DNA from: Thermosynechococcus vestitus BP-1
GTDB taxonomy: Bacteria > Cyanobacteriota > Cyanobacteriia > Thermosynechococcales > Thermosynechococcaceae
Assembly (NCBI RefSeq): GCF_000011345.1
Contig: NC_004113.1
Location: 2,046,001-2,110,000, forward strand
Direction of reading: 5' to 3'
DNA: 64,000 nt
The notes under the pieces are model-generated. The model saw only the letters and a list, made by a program, of their open reading frames with translations. It was not told the DNA's origin and ran no database searches. Position numbers and translations under genes: made by a program. Shown in pieces: positions 27,113-30,953 of this stretch (position 1 is the first letter of the stretch; each line of letters opens with the position of its first letter).

Positions 27113-27132
27113 GTCGTGGTACTCACGAGTGC

Positions 27133-27333
27133 TTATTCCTTCCTAAACTTACTGGCTGCTTCCTCAAAGGCTTTGCTCAACTCCCCCCGCGCGCTCTGAA
27201 ACCCTGCTTTGATGGACTCCCAGGCATCATCTACCGTTGCTTTGAGGGCAGCCAATGGTTGAGTGACGTCATCGCCTCTGGCCTTCAGGGCTTGAATTTT
27301 GGCTTCAATATCTGCCTTGATATCTTCACCAGC
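27133..27333 (-). pseudogene. 5'-truncated amphipathic-helix protein gene
   Basis: A 66-codon frame (AGEDIKADIEAKIQALKARG ... EEAASKFRKE stop) has an in-frame TAA at 27334-27336 immediately upstream and no ATG or GTG inside. The sequence is a typical alanine/lysine/glutamate amphipathic helix of the cyanobacterial helical stress-protein type. The 5' part is missing and AT-rich foreign-looking DNA begins there, so the gene was probably truncated by rearrangement. TTG initiation cannot be excluded. Confidence 0.6.
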
Positions 27334-27336
27334 TTA

Positions 27337-28026
27337 ATCTGTCCTTGCCTTGAGTTGGTCAAGCGATCGAACATACAACTATCCTGCCGTTTTCAAGATA
27401 AATACCTATCATTGCCCAAGAATTGCCAGATGAATGACAATCCAAGGAGGTCATATTTCGTAGAATGGGGTCAAGGGAATGGAGAGATTTTGTAAAAGTT
27501 GCTTTCATTTCTACACAAAAATAAACTAAAAATCGAAGTAATAATTAAGAAACATATCCAATCATTTTATTGTGTTTAGTGTGTCCAGGGATACAGTCAA
27601 AGAACTAAAGAGAAATCTATATTTTTGATTGGAGATTCAGGGGGATAGTCTGTATGAACAGCCCGTTTCTACCCTAGAGGGTTATCAGTGAGCCAGTTTC
27701 ACACTTCCTGGCTTCATTAACAGCTTTGACTCCCGTATTGAAGTAATGCGAAATAGGGTATACGTGAGCCAGGATTTCAGGAGTGTGGCGTGGGGAAAAG
27801 TATTTTAAGTATCTAAGGCAGAGCCCTAGGTCAGCAGCACTTGTATTTTTCAGGGGGGAATCTTTAATCATTTCTGAAATTCTGAGCTTTTTGGGGATTT
27901 TTTTTGTTAGCTTGTAGGAGCAAGCGCCTGACTGAATTCTCATCAATAAATCAAATGATCAGTCAATTCACCTGATCTACTCACTCAATTCATTCAGTGG
28001 TCATTCAGTCTTTCGAGGTAAAGAAG
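27337..28026. other. AT-rich intergenic region of about 690 bases
   Basis: Base composition is clearly more AT-rich than the surroundings (runs such as TTTTTTTTGTTAG near 27900). A minus-strand frame at 27674-27946 (90 codons, ending NEARKCETGSLITL) is the only sizeable one and I do not recognise it. GTGAGCCAG occurs at 27689 and again near 27764, and AGCCAG/CTGGCT form an inverted repeat at 27692-27714. Short ATTCA-containing repeats lie before the globin gene (27975-28012). It may be mobile-element debris and also carries the globin operon promoter. Confidence 0.4.
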
Positions 28027-28581
28027 ATGACAATTGAGCCAATCAATTTTATGGCAACAATGGTACGACGAGTCCAGTTGACCGATGAAGACAAATCGCT
28101 GTTAGCTGAAGCCGCCCCTTGGGGGAAAGAAATTGCTCCGCAAATGGCGGATACTTTTTATGACTATCTAGGCCGTGATGAAGAAATGAACGCTATCCTC
28201 AATGCCACGGAGGGGCGAATCCATCGTCTGCATCAAACCTTTGTCGACTGGTTTTATGAAATGTTCACAGGAATGGATAGTTGGGGCAAAGCCTATGCTG
28301 AGCGACGCTGGAAAATTGGTCTTGTCCATGTGCGCATTGGAATTGGCCCGCAGCACGTCGTGCCTGCAATGGCAGTTGTCGTGAATGCCGTACGCCAAAA
28401 ATTAAGGGAAGCCAACAAATCCGAAGCCCTCAGTGACGCCCTTGGCAAAATTTGCATGATTGATCTTGCCTTTATTGAGCAGGCCTACTTTGAAGTTTCT
28501 TCCCAAGCAGTCCTCAAAGAAACCGGTTGGACACAGGCACTGTTTCAGCGTCTGATTGCCACGGGTGCTGCTGCTATGTAG
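28027..28581 (+). CDS. protoglobin-like single-domain globin
   Basis: The 184-residue protein matches the sensor-globin/protoglobin fold with an N-terminal pre-helix (EPINFMATMVRRVQLTDEDKSLL). The proximal histidine is H101 in KIGLVHVRIGI, the motif specific to globin-coupled sensors. No output domain follows, so it must act through partners or bind O2/NO itself. ATG 28027 has a GAGG ribosome site. It heads a same-strand cluster with Roadblock, MglA-like, DUF4388 and hemerythrin genes. Confidence 0.85.
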   Translation: MTIEPINFMATMVRRVQLTDEDKSLLAEAAPWGKEIAPQMADTFYDYLGRDEEMNAILNATEGRIHRLHQTFVDWFYEMFTGMDSWGKAYAERRWKIGLVHVRIGIGPQHVVPAMAVVVNAVRQKLREANKSEALSDALGKICMIDLAFIEQAYFEVSSQAVLKETGWTQALFQRLIATGAAAM

Positions 28582-28582
28582 G

Positions 28583-28600
28583 TCTCCCATCAAGGGGAGC
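28583..28600 (+). other. intercistronic hairpin
   Basis: CTCCC-ATCAA-GGGGAG forms a short stem just after the globin stop. There is no T run, so it is more likely an mRNA processing or stability element than a terminator. Confidence 0.35.
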
Positions 28601-28653
28601 TAAGTGTTCAAAAGTCTGCACGAGTATTTAAAGAATTTAAAGAGGATTCAACC

Positions 28654-29049
28654 ATGCCGATTAACGCTGCAAAACTGGAAGCCACACTGCAACACTTTGT
28701 TGCCAATGCCAGTAATGTCCAAGGGGCAGCCCTTGTATCTCCTGATGGTCTGACGCTGGCCGCAACTCTGCCGGGGGGAATGGACGATGAACGGGTGGCT
28801 GCAATGTCAGCCGCAATGCTGTCCTTAGGGGAGCGGATTGGCCGAGAACTGAGTCGTGGCCAAGTGGAACGAATTTTGGTTGAGGGAAGCAATGGCTATG
28901 GCATTCTCACTAGTTGTACTGAAGATGCAGTCTTTCTGGTGCTAGCGGATGCCTCTGCCAAGTTAGGAATTATCAACCTTGAAATTAAAAATGTGTTGGC
29001 CGACCTGCAAAGCCAACTCACCGGTGTGAGTCAGCCCCTAAATGTTTAA
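28654..29049 (+). CDS. Roadblock/LC7-domain protein (MglB-like)
   Basis: The 131-residue protein has the Roadblock fold: an N-terminal helix (MPINAAKLEATLQHFVANAS), then VQGAALVSPDGLTLAATLPGG and a long helix DDERVAAMSAAMLSLGERIG. MglB-type Roadblock dimers act as GTPase-activating partners of MglA-type small GTPases, one of which is encoded 34 bases downstream. A GAGG ribosome site precedes the ATG. Probably cytosolic. Confidence 0.85.
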   Translation: MPINAAKLEATLQHFVANASNVQGAALVSPDGLTLAATLPGGMDDERVAAMSAAMLSLGERIGRELSRGQVERILVEGSNGYGILTSCTEDAVFLVLADASAKLGIINLEIKNVLADLQSQLTGVSQPLNV

Positions 29050-29083
29050 CCCCTAAAGATTCCCTAAACTCAGGTGCTCACCC

Positions 29084-29650
29084 ATGGAAATTATGCGTAT
29101 TGTCATCACAGGACCAGTGGGAGCAGGGAAATCTACCTTCATCCGCACCATTAGCGAAATTGAACCAGTGGATACGGACCGCAAGGCAACGGATGAAACT
29201 GCTGCTTTCAAAGAAAGGACAACGGTGGCGATGGATTTTGGGCGGCTTCAGTTTGGCCCCAATGTTGCCCTGCATCTGTATGGCACCCCCGGCCAAGAAC
29301 GCTTTGACTTTATGTGGGATATTCTCATTCGCAAAGCCCATGCTTTCATCCTGCTGGTGAGTTCTCACCGCCCTCAAGATTTTCGAGCAGCACGGCGGAT
29401 TTTGGCCTTTATGCGCCATCGCACAAAGATTCCCATGCTAGTGGGTCTGAGCCATGCGGATAACCCGAATGCTTGGCCTGCTGAAGAGATCGCGATCGCC
29501 CTTGGCTACCTAAGTCCCCACGGTCGCCCACCGATGCTGCCGGTCAACGCCTTGGATCGGTCTTCCGTTGCTGCTGCCATGATGGCACTCATTCAAGCCT
29601 ATGCCAGTGCCCAGTCCTCGCAATCAAACCACAGGGCACTTACCACTTAG
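29084..29650 (+). CDS. MglA-like small Ras-type GTPase
   Basis: The 188-residue protein has a P-loop GPVGAGKST near residue 10, a G3 motif YGTPGQERFDFMW near residue 65 (TPGQ is the prokaryotic MglA-type variant of DxxGQ), and LLVSSHRPQDF. The G4 motif is not a clear NKxD: SHADNPN near residue 124 stands in its place. MglA switches set polarity and control type IV pili and gliding in Myxococcus. The adjacent Roadblock gene is its expected partner. Start 29084 or the ATG 9 bases later. Confidence 0.85.
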   Translation: MEIMRIVITGPVGAGKSTFIRTISEIEPVDTDRKATDETAAFKERTTVAMDFGRLQFGPNVALHLYGTPGQERFDFMWDILIRKAHAFILLVSSHRPQDFRAARRILAFMRHRTKIPMLVGLSHADNPNAWPAEEIAIALGYLSPHGRPPMLPVNALDRSSVAAAMMALIQAYASAQSSQSNHRALTT

Positions 29651-29674
29651 AAAATCACTCATTAGGGGGAATGT

Positions 29675-30529
29675 ATGAAAATTACAGGTTATCTATCGGA
29701 ATTTTCCTTGGGGGAAATTTTCCGTTTTCTGGAGCAAGGGCAAAAAACAGGCTGCCTCTCGATTAAGCCAGTGGAAATGGCAGGGATGATGCCACTCATC
29801 CCCCTGGCGCAGGAGTACTATATTTTCTTTCGCTTAGGTCAGATTGTGGCAGCAACAACAAGCTTAGATCATCAAGGACTGCAACGGCTGATTGAGCAGC
29901 GGGGATGGCTCCGCCCCACCACGATCCAACGCCTCCTGCCCTTTTGCTCCCTCACGGGTTCCCTTGGCCTCTGCCTAAAAACACAGGGTGCCCTTGACCC
30001 CGAACAGCTTCAATTATTGTTTAAGCAGCAGGTCCTGACACCAATTCCTCACCTCTTTAGTCTCAATGAGGGCTGGTTCAAGTTTGATGCCAACCATCCG
30101 CTGCCCTTTCACGAAATGACGGGACTCAGTGCCTCACCGATGGACATTTCCTTAGCGGGTCTACGACTCCTGCGGGATTGGACAGCCTTGATGGACAAGC
30201 TGCCCTTGCCCAGTTCAGCGATCGCCAGCACAATTGAGGGTCAGCCCCCCTACCGTCTAAATCGCCATGAGTGGCAAGTGTGGGAGTACGCCAATGGCAC
30301 AATGACACTTCAGGAAATTAGCGATGCTTTGAGCTTGCCAATTCTGGAGATCCAGAAAATCTGCTTCCGCTTGATGGTGGTGGGCATTGCCGAGGAGATT
30401 GCGGGCATTAGTGTCCCTTCTGCTAGTGCTACTGAGCCTGAACCCATTGAAACAGCAGAAATCAGCACCTCCTTTTTGGAGGGACTCTTTACATTCCTAA
30501 AAACGAAAACCCAAGCGAACGCTTCCTAG
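29675..30529 (+). CDS. DUF4388 (PatA N-terminal-like) protein
   Basis: The 284-residue protein starts MKITGYLSEFSLGEIFRFLE, the hallmark of DUF4388, followed by GQKTGCLSI. Residues 60-130 resemble the second DUF4388 half (GWLRPTTIQRLLPFC). The region 185-245 (EGQPPYRLNRHEWQVWEYAN, TLQEISDAL) reads as a winged-helix-like element. DUF4388 domains are found at the N-terminus of PatA/PixG-type response regulators that control pattern and motility; no receiver domain is present here. It follows the GTPase gene by 24 bases. Confidence 0.8.
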   Translation: MKITGYLSEFSLGEIFRFLEQGQKTGCLSIKPVEMAGMMPLIPLAQEYYIFFRLGQIVAATTSLDHQGLQRLIEQRGWLRPTTIQRLLPFCSLTGSLGLCLKTQGALDPEQLQLLFKQQVLTPIPHLFSLNEGWFKFDANHPLPFHEMTGLSASPMDISLAGLRLLRDWTALMDKLPLPSSAIASTIEGQPPYRLNRHEWQVWEYANGTMTLQEISDALSLPILEIQKICFRLMVVGIAEEIAGISVPSASATEPEPIETAEISTSFLEGLFTFLKTKTQANAS

Positions 30530-30542
30530 GGAGGCAAAGGGA

Positions 30543-30953
30543 ATGCTACAGCGCTTTGAATGGACGGATCGCCTGAGTACTGGCGTGCCGATGGTTGACA
30601 TTCAGCACAAGGAGCTAGTGACCGCAATTAATGATCTTGCCGATGCCATTGAACAGGGGCGGGGTGCTTCTCGTATTAAACAGCTCATTGTGTTTATGAA
30701 ATACTACGCTGAGTGGCACTTTGAGAACGAGGAAAGCTGTGCCAACAAATATCGGTGTCCTCTCGCAGAGGTCAACCATCGTGCCCATCAACAATTCATC
30801 CAGCTTTTTGAGGAGCTTCAGCAGCAGTATCGCCACAGTCAAGCGGATGAGTCGGTTGCCGTGATGATCCATGGTAAATTAGCGGATTGGTTGGTCAACC
30901 ACATCATGAAAATCGATAAGGAGATTGGCCAGCACATTTGTGCCCACCGCTAG
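30543..30953 (+). CDS. bacteriohemerythrin
   Basis: The 136-residue protein has the four-helix hemerythrin fold. Di-iron ligands are visible as H22 (DIQHKEL), H59 and E63 (EWHFENEE), and a C-terminal HIMKID motif. The third-helix site reads NHRAHQQF (H79, H82), an HxxH spacing rather than the usual HxxxH, so one ligand may be shifted. It binds O2 or other diatomic ligands at a di-iron centre. It starts 13 bases after the DUF4388 gene. Confidence 0.85.
   Translation: MLQRFEWTDRLSTGVPMVDIQHKELVTAINDLADAIEQGRGASRIKQLIVFMKYYAEWHFENEESCANKYRCPLAEVNHRAHQQFIQLFEELQQQYRHSQADESVAVMIHGKLADWLVNHIMKIDKEIGQHICAHR

Follow-up and report, generated by a model that had tools for sequence, protein, structure and literature searches.

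A protoglobin gene kept beside an MglA/Roadblock-type GTPase module in Thermosynechococcus vestitus and its relatives: a candidate ligand-gated switch

The 64,000-nucleotide stretch of the Thermosynechococcus vestitus BP-1 genome analyzed here (contig NC_004113.1, positions 2,046,001–2,110,000; hereafter the window) contains a cluster of five genes that encode a protoglobin, a Roadblock/LC7 protein, an MglA-type GTPase, a DUF4388 protein (DUF4388 being the PATAN or PatA N-terminal domain), and a bacteriohemerythrin (Table 1). The genes are separated by 72, 34, 24, and 13 bases. The first-pass annotation, made from the letters alone, had described five same-strand genes spaced by 13–72 bases and had named their domains; the coordinates of the open reading frames match that layout, and Pfam matches, together with an NCBIfam bacteriohemerythrin match above cut-off, agree with the names. 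A terminator scan found no terminator-like site between the cluster genes on the forward strand, and the single forward-strand match in the cluster falls inside the globin gene. We propose that the cluster probably encodes a ligand-gated MglAB-like switch, in which a stand-alone sensor globin acts in trans and the PATAN protein serves as partner or effector. Published sources are given by their PMC identifiers; loci from other genomes carry numbers with the prefix L.

Table 1. Features of the globin–GTPase cluster, with positions in the window.
Feature	Position	Strand	Basis
Tlr1989, 184-aa single-domain sensor globin of the protoglobin type; putative input for gas or redox state	28027..28581	+	PF11563, PDB 8h17
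Codon of proximal heme ligand His101	28327..28329	+	conservation; aligned with sensor globin 2w31
Conserved globin C-terminal tail, residues 161–181 (AVLKETGWTQALFQRLIATGA), candidate docking helix for Roadblock/GTPase	28507..28569	+	
Roadblock/LC7 (MglB-like) protein, 131 aa	28654..29049	+	PF03259
Asp-Gly pair D31 G32, typical of Group 2–5 MglB partners	28744..28749	+	
MglA-type small GTPase, 188 aa	29084..29650	+	Pfam Ras/Roc-type match
G3 motif GTPGQ, Group 2–5 MglA type	29282..29296	+	
284-aa PATAN (DUF4388) protein that lacks a receiver domain; candidate partner or effector	29675..30529	+	
Winged-helix-like region of PATAN protein, residues 171–247	30185..30415	+	model, structure matches
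Conserved C-terminal helix of PATAN protein, residues 265–282, candidate docking motif	30467..30520	+	model
Bacteriohemerythrin, 136 aa, optional module	30543..30953	+	TIGR02481, NF033749

The globin has a Pfam Protoglobin match (E = 6e-24, 85 bits) and is 100% identical across all 184 residues to chain A of PDB entry 8h17, the “Tlr1989 protein”. A biochemical paper on this solved globin reportedly exists; the name Tlr1989 is absent from the literature that was found on Thermosynechococcus globins in a search that took in few subscription journals. His101, which had been picked as the proximal ligand from the window sequence, and Tyr45, presumably Tyr B10, are each invariant in an alignment of 82 globins (82/82). 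This alignment comprises 59 cyanobacterial sequences, including the window globin, that of locus L038, and five stand-alone copies, and 23 globins of at least 150 residues from Deinococcota that are linked to Roadblock genes (see below); fused sensors were set aside. The window globin therefore has both the protoglobin domain and the proximal heme histidine. It carries one Pfam domain in its 184 residues and no transmitter domain in the same chain, so that it is not itself a globin-coupled sensor, and it may still act like one in trans.

In terms of the switch proteins, a search of the window's own genome found one Roadblock gene, that of the cluster (Robl_LC7, E = 3e-18, 65.8 bits against a cut-off of 23), and one match to the GTPase at E = 1e-10. 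The G3 motif GTPGQ, by which Groups 2–5 of MglA are defined (PMC4316618), is invariant in 18 of 18 aligned GTPases, as are Thr46 and Thr47, with threonine replacing the arginine of Group 1 in G2. An identity as Group 1 MglA was rejected, as the G3 and G2 motifs do not fit. The Asp31–Gly32 pair, described as a trait of Group 2–5 MglB partners in the same source, is invariant in a 29-row alignment of Roadblock proteins. Most of the cyanobacterial Roadblock proteins stop after about 123 residues (131 in the window), so that an extended C-terminal helix with guanine nucleotide exchange factor (GEF) activity seems to be missing. Such a helix is described in Myxococcus xanthus MglB, which acts as a GTPase-activating protein (GAP) and as an allosteric GEF for MglA (PMC11016934); the same article also mentions a report of MglB as a GAP only.

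The linkage of the globin with this pair is conserved among cyanobacteria. In a sample of 194 genomes of the phylum, 18 contain the GTPase and 20 a protoglobin above the Pfam cut-off; 17 have both (Fisher p ~ 2e-20, uncorrected for relatedness). All 17 protoglobin genomes of the window's class possess the GTPase, and the other three belong to other classes, where the two examined encode fusions to GGDEF or STAS. A weak match in one further genome of the class (G119) lies below the cut-off and holds a stop. The globin is found in the cluster at 16 of 18 loci from 17 other genomes; the two loci without it are L037, the second locus of a genome whose first has a globin, and L039, from a genome with no protoglobin match.

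A scan of named genomes added at least 79 further loci, three of them non-cyanobacterial, in genera that include Pseudanabaena, Leptolyngbya, Nodosilinea, Anabaena, Fischerella, Calothrix, Moorena, and Pleurocapsa; these relatives were picked by GTPase similarity, as the best 80 among the matches listed. Removal of two duplicates (L063, L072) and of the non-cyanobacterial L118–L120 from 97 loci left 92, and the 59 of these with at least 2.5 kb of flank on both sides form, with the window, a 60-locus set. In this set, the GTPase gene is coupled to an MglB/Roadblock gene at 58 loci, a PATAN gene is present at 53, a globin at 41, a gene for a V4R-fold protein at 30, and a hemerythrin gene at six; globin, Roadblock, GTPase, and PATAN occur together at 35. 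Apart from the window, 58 of 59 loci carry their core genes on a single strand, and the gene orders that include the globin number 19. A chance neighborhood was rejected because of the co-occurrence in the 194 genomes and these 19 orders. The first-pass annotation had listed the lack of a conserved neighborhood in related genomes among the results that would refute its proposal, and the 60-locus survey finds the neighborhood conserved.

On a quick tree of the GTPases, in which many branches are weak, the presence of the globin changes at least 13 times, that of the V4R-fold gene 16 times, and that of hemerythrin three times, so that repeated loss or gain of the globin seems likely. The globin thus looks like a module that comes and goes and that mostly sits inside the cluster when present. 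In the genome of L062, a 52-residue globin remnant with a stop (G200:C17:3106343-3106498) lies near the GTPase cluster by its coordinates, apparently a globin in the process of loss. At L038:5966-6517, a Deinococcota-like protoglobin replaces the usual one; it is 29% identical to the window globin, groups with two Deinococcota globins, and has a tail motif one residue shorter, which indicates that a different globin fills the same slot of the cluster.

The pairing recurs in Deinococcota. A distant GTPase match belongs to a Thermaceae genome (L119), and at another locus of this genome (L166) a Roadblock gene is directly followed by a protoglobin gene and, farther downstream, by a DUF4388 gene. 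Among 111 Deinococcota genomes, 77 have a protoglobin above cut-off and 102 a Roadblock protein, and at least 19 have the two as neighbors, as judged by matching the tables by eye. All 19 loci fetched confirm the pair, which in L206 is spaced by about 600 bases, and 14 of them contain a GTPase of the MglA-type family. PATAN matches were obtained at seven, in addition to the DUF4388 gene assigned by Pfam in L166, and a V4R-fold gene at one (L198). At L197:4728-5944, one genome has another linked globin, which is broken up into two short open reading frames. No protoglobin was found in the two Chloroflexota genomes checked.

Past the Pfam domain, the cyanobacterial globins retain a C-terminal tail, ETGWsEALFrRLI, with conservation close to that of the heme pocket. 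Gly167, Leu172, and Arg175 of the tail are as invariant as the heme histidine, each being kept in all 82 aligned globins. The pattern G-x4-L-x2-R, which shuffled tails match at a chance rate of about 3%, is present in 57 of 60 cyanobacterial globins, the misses being L038 and two fused sensors. In Deinococcota, it is present in 22 of 25 linked rows (L188 and L189, the same genes as L198 and L210, were omitted) versus none of the 31 unlinked rows examined, which represent the 28 best-scoring remaining protoglobin loci and whose unlinked status was judged on about 1.5 kb of flank. Two of the three linked rows without the pattern have a motif one residue shorter, and the third is an 88-residue fragment. 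We infer that the tail is a docking element that acts on the GTPase or the Roadblock protein in trans. Four lines of evidence thus back the link between globin and MglAB that the first reading of the window had suggested: the co-occurrence of the genes, their continued linkage through changes of gene order, the second occurrence in Deinococcota, and the common globin tail.

The PATAN protein (PF14332, E = 8e-28, 97 bits; predicted local distance difference test score, pLDDT, of the model 89) has no Pfam match to Response_reg and is thus not of the PATAN-REC type of PixG and PixE. The window's genome has four PATAN genes, and the other three end in receiver-like sequence by eye. PDB fold matches of the model span almost only residues 171–245 and hardly touch the N-terminal part. 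Most of the top structural matches to the winged-helix-like region are subunits of the GATOR1/SEA complex (Z = 8.9–10.4 across 72–76 residues), alongside a putative peptidase (Z = 9.4); ordinary winged helices reach Z = 5–6. GATOR1 regulates Rag GTPases. A low-confidence linker, residues 248–263, precedes the last helix, and in a 57-row alignment Leu275 is invariant and Ser264, Phe267, and Leu271 are nearly so. This helix is a further candidate for docking in trans on the GTPase or the Roadblock protein.

The bacteriohemerythrin (Pfam Hemerythrin, E = 2e-14; TIGR02481 above cut-off; NF033749, 99 bits against a cut-off of 84) displays the di-iron ligand motif pattern, as do nine of nine relatives. 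With its presence at six of 60 loci, hemerythrin was rejected as a core part of the cluster. At all six it accompanies a globin, 35 of the 41 loci with a globin lack it, and it is never found with the V4R-fold protein (0 of 60 loci). The notion that two gas binders flank the switch therefore holds for the window and fails as a general trait; it describes one variant, since hemerythrin is optional and never coincides with the V4R-fold protein. Two Thermosynechococcus metagenome genomes (L042, L043) have two adjacent bacteriohemerythrin genes after the PATAN gene, on contigs that end before any globin.

The V4R-fold protein, of about 155 residues, is absent from the window cluster. In six sequences scanned, no convincing Pfam family was found and none of the six gave a V4R match at E = 0.1. 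Its AlphaFold (AF2) model (pLDDT 90) has a V4R/TRAPPC3 (Bet3) fold, with structure matches to the phenol-sensor domains of MopR and PoxR (Z ~ 16), the archaeal V4R protein MJ1460 (13.5), Asgard TRAPPC3 (13.3), and Bet3 (12.8), but also to BcsD (13.2), a protein involved in making cellulose. An hhalign profile comparison with ordinary V4R proteins from cyanobacteria gives a weak match (probability 49, E = 1.7e-4). Its profile has no match elsewhere in the window's genome, an empty result of little weight. That genome has three ordinary V4R-domain genes far from the cluster (G000:C1:2389093-2391061 and 874998-875180); two of these are spaced by about 1.8 kb, and such pairs occur in other cyanobacteria as well. 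As V4R domains probably bind hydrophobic ligands (PMC2253512), the V4R-fold protein and hemerythrin may be alternative second sensors.

In the switch that we propose, the globin would be a stand-alone heme sensor that resembles a globin-coupled sensor but relies on a second protein as its transmitter. When O2, NO, or CO binds to or leaves the heme, or when the heme redox state changes, this would alter the G/H-helix end and the C-terminal tail; the tail would dock on the Roadblock dimer and/or the GTPase, and the GTPase would shift between its GTP and GDP states. The GTPase would then relay its state to the PATAN protein, which has relatives that target the motor of type IV pili. A second ligand input would be provided by the bacteriohemerythrin in the window and by the V4R/TRAPPC3-fold protein elsewhere. 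A functional link of gas sensor and switch is well supported, direct docking of the globin on the switch is moderately supported, and motility control by the switch is weakly supported; the direction of regulation and the role of the PATAN protein as effector are likewise parts of the model. PATAN-REC proteins of Synechocystis bind the pilus motor proteins PilB1/PilC (PMC12288463, PMC9090330) and T. vulcanus moves by polar type IV pili (PMC9090330), which makes pilus control the most likely output.

Several observations weigh against the proposed switch. Many GTPase clusters are without a globin. A genome-wide globin search covered 24 of the 44 loci with no globin nearby, plus L097, and 18 of the 24 genomes, some of them partial assemblies, gave no globin match, so that the GTPase module works without the globin; five of the remaining six have a globin in another Roadblock cluster, and one has a remnant with a stop. 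Conversely, six globin copies stand alone (L121, L122, L123, L124, L125, L131), and the five of them that were aligned retain the tail. The tail motif was recognized by inspecting linked sequences, and the unlinked rows were drawn from the top scores of a longer list; the tail contrast is for these reasons a strong lead and no independent test. On a quick tree of the globin body, with many weak branches and long branches that meet, the linked globins form three groups, and the cyanobacterial group joins an unlinked Deinococcota group. This tree was built from cyanobacterial globins of 14 chosen loci, two stand-alone copies being counted as linked, and from Deinococcota rows of at least 150 residues. 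The linked groups may have a single origin, and kinship, rather than docking, could account for the contrast between linked and unlinked tails. Contact of the globin with the Roadblock protein or the GTPase is itself a putative step, as is the pilus link, the cluster PATAN protein having no receiver domain. Around the clusters, each flank family is confined to at most 13 of 95 loci, and among those looked at (the 30 most widespread, few of them annotated) no pilus gene was recognized.

A switch that is gated by gas but whose output is gene expression, cell pattern, or polysaccharide and aggregation, instead of pilus-based movement, is possible, if somewhat unlikely. It would suit the winged-helix-like region of the PATAN protein, the presence of the cluster in several genera of filamentous or colonial habit, and the pair of HisKA_3 histidine kinase and NarL/LuxR-type response regulator genes near 10 of 95 clusters (including L026 and L031, with domains checked in L031). 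The winged-helix region itself argues the other way, as most of its best matches are GATOR1/SEA-complex subunits (Z ~ 10 over 75 residues, with the putative peptidase close behind), and these subunits regulate GTPases rather than bind DNA. The PATAN domain takes its name from PatA of heterocyst patterning (PMC4316618), which favors such an output; against it, the characterized PATAN-REC proteins of cyanobacteria target the pilus motor, as cited above.

We consider it unlikely that the cluster is an operon of convenience, in which globin, hemerythrin, and GTPase module are co-expressed, for example under low O2 or nitrosative stress, with no contact between them and with the globin as scavenger or detoxifier. 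An archaeal protoglobin is described with nitrite-reductase and peroxynitrite-isomerizing activity (PMC4020757), and globin-less GTPase clusters and stand-alone globin copies occur. However, the linkage survives many rearrangements and recurs in a second phylum, all 17 in-class protoglobin genomes hold the GTPase, the invariant tail is not part of the heme site, and a globin–Roadblock fusion is known. It is highly improbable that bacteriohemerythrin and globin jointly store O2 or supply it to a neighboring enzyme, with the GTPase incidental. Both kinds of protein bind O2 in other systems, and hemerythrin occurs only with a globin in the 60-locus set; against this, most globin-bearing loci lack hemerythrin, the most widespread flank family reaches no more than 13 of 95 loci, and Roadblock and GTPase are the constant companions.

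The ligand-gated switch can be extended to a bolder model, which we hold to be doubtful: a gas-gated bacterial TRAPP-like exchange machine, with the Roadblock dimer, the V4R/Bet3-fold subunit, and the MglA-type GTPase in one complex, into which globins would plug by their C-terminal helix, while the PATAN protein would read the GTPase and drive the pilus motor. Hemerythrin would replace the V4R/Bet3-fold subunit in the Thermosynechococcus type, the globin helix would act in trans in place of the GEF helix that the MglB-like protein lacks, and reading of the GTPase would proceed via the Nprl2/3-like winged helix and the tethered C-terminal helix of the PATAN protein. If true, such a module, common to Cyanobacteria and Deinococcota, would represent a general wiring of interchangeable small-ligand sensors to a Ras-like switch.

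We know of no identified input for most bacterial MglA/Roadblock switches. A conserved heme sensor beside the switch offers a testable input along with a candidate docking motif, in an organism whose globin structure is solved and whose genome carries a single Roadblock gene and a single GTPase gene of this type. If the proposed ligand-gated switch is correct, gas or redox sensing would be tied to surface behavior in mat-forming phototrophs, and a single-domain sensor globin would signal without a fused output. The V4R-fold partner of the relatives also provides a bacterial comparison for GTPase–Roadblock–TRAPPC3 sets.

Upstream of the globin gene, positions 27113–28026 make up about 900 bases with no clear gene, A+T-rich by eye, in which a simple scan found no sigma-70-like promoter on the forward strand. 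Downstream, the window and L024 share genes for a DUF167 protein and an M1 peptidase, encoded on the strand of the cluster; these genes were excluded from it, as the remaining 17 of the first 18 loci did not show them. At L104:4401-6467, an NB-ARC/TPR (STAND-type) protein is encoded between two globin–Roadblock pairs, and relatives of it lie near clusters L107, L108, and L114. A 363-residue Hyella protein with a protoglobin in its C-terminal part is encoded at L136:5283-6374 (= L097), on the strand opposite the cluster. In L121, the stand-alone globin gene is flanked by kinase genes on one side and TPP-enzyme/aldehyde dehydrogenase genes on the other. L084, a metagenome genome that bears the title Tatlockia, holds a typical cyanobacterial-type cluster, with flanks too short for the count, and looks like a misassigned contig. 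A search of viral contigs with two query proteins gave no GTPase relatives.

In comparison with known systems, the first-pass annotation had named no described system of this make-up. No article on protoglobin together with Roadblock was found in our search, limited as above with respect to subscription journals; the make-up is not wholly new to the literature, as MglB/MglA–PATAN neighborhoods (PMC4316618) and a globin–Roadblock fusion (PMC4476040) are in print. Wuichet and Sogaard-Andersen report PATAN genes near some Group 1 and Group 5 mglA genes and place Group 5 in cyanobacteria (PMC4316618); the main text of that article contains neither “globin” nor “hemerythrin”. The MglA/MglB systems of Myxococcus xanthus and Thermus share with the cluster a Ras-like GTPase and a Roadblock partner, and that of Myxococcus controls type IV pili. 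Unlike Group 1 MglA, the cluster GTPase has the G3 motif GTPGQ and no intrinsic arginine finger, and unlike MglA/MglB, the cluster also encodes a globin and a PATAN protein. The cyanobacterial Roadblock proteins apparently lack the extended C-terminal GEF helix of M. xanthus MglB (PMC11016934).

Other systems resemble the cluster in part. The conservons (Cvn) of actinobacteria encode a sensor, an MglB-like Roadblock protein, and a small GTPase together, but with a histidine kinase-like sensor and CvnC in place of the heme globin and PATAN protein; neither CvnA nor CvnC is encoded by any of the five cluster genes or by the core genes of relatives. In TRAPP and Asgard sets, a small GTPase and a Roadblock protein go together with a protein of the V4R/TRAPPC3 fold (PMC10933270), as in the related clusters; the latter are bacterial and have an MglA-type GTPase and a globin, and the window cluster has no V4R-fold gene. 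That Asgard article is the only one joining V4R and MglA that the same search returned. In HGbRL, the globin–Roadblock fusion of Methylacidiphilum, the ligand state of the globin is proposed to drive the Roadblock domain, as here. HGbRL differs in being fused, in having a bacterial-type globin with Tyr B10/Gln E7 rather than a protoglobin, in being reported from one genus, and in its neighbor, a methyltransferase gene, an MglA/MglB pair lying elsewhere (PMC4476040). Finally, globin-coupled sensors such as HemAT share with Tlr1989 the protoglobin-type heme domain, the proximal histidine, the conserved tyrosine, and a proposed role in signaling; whereas they carry their transmitter in cis, the proposed partner of Tlr1989 is encoded next door.

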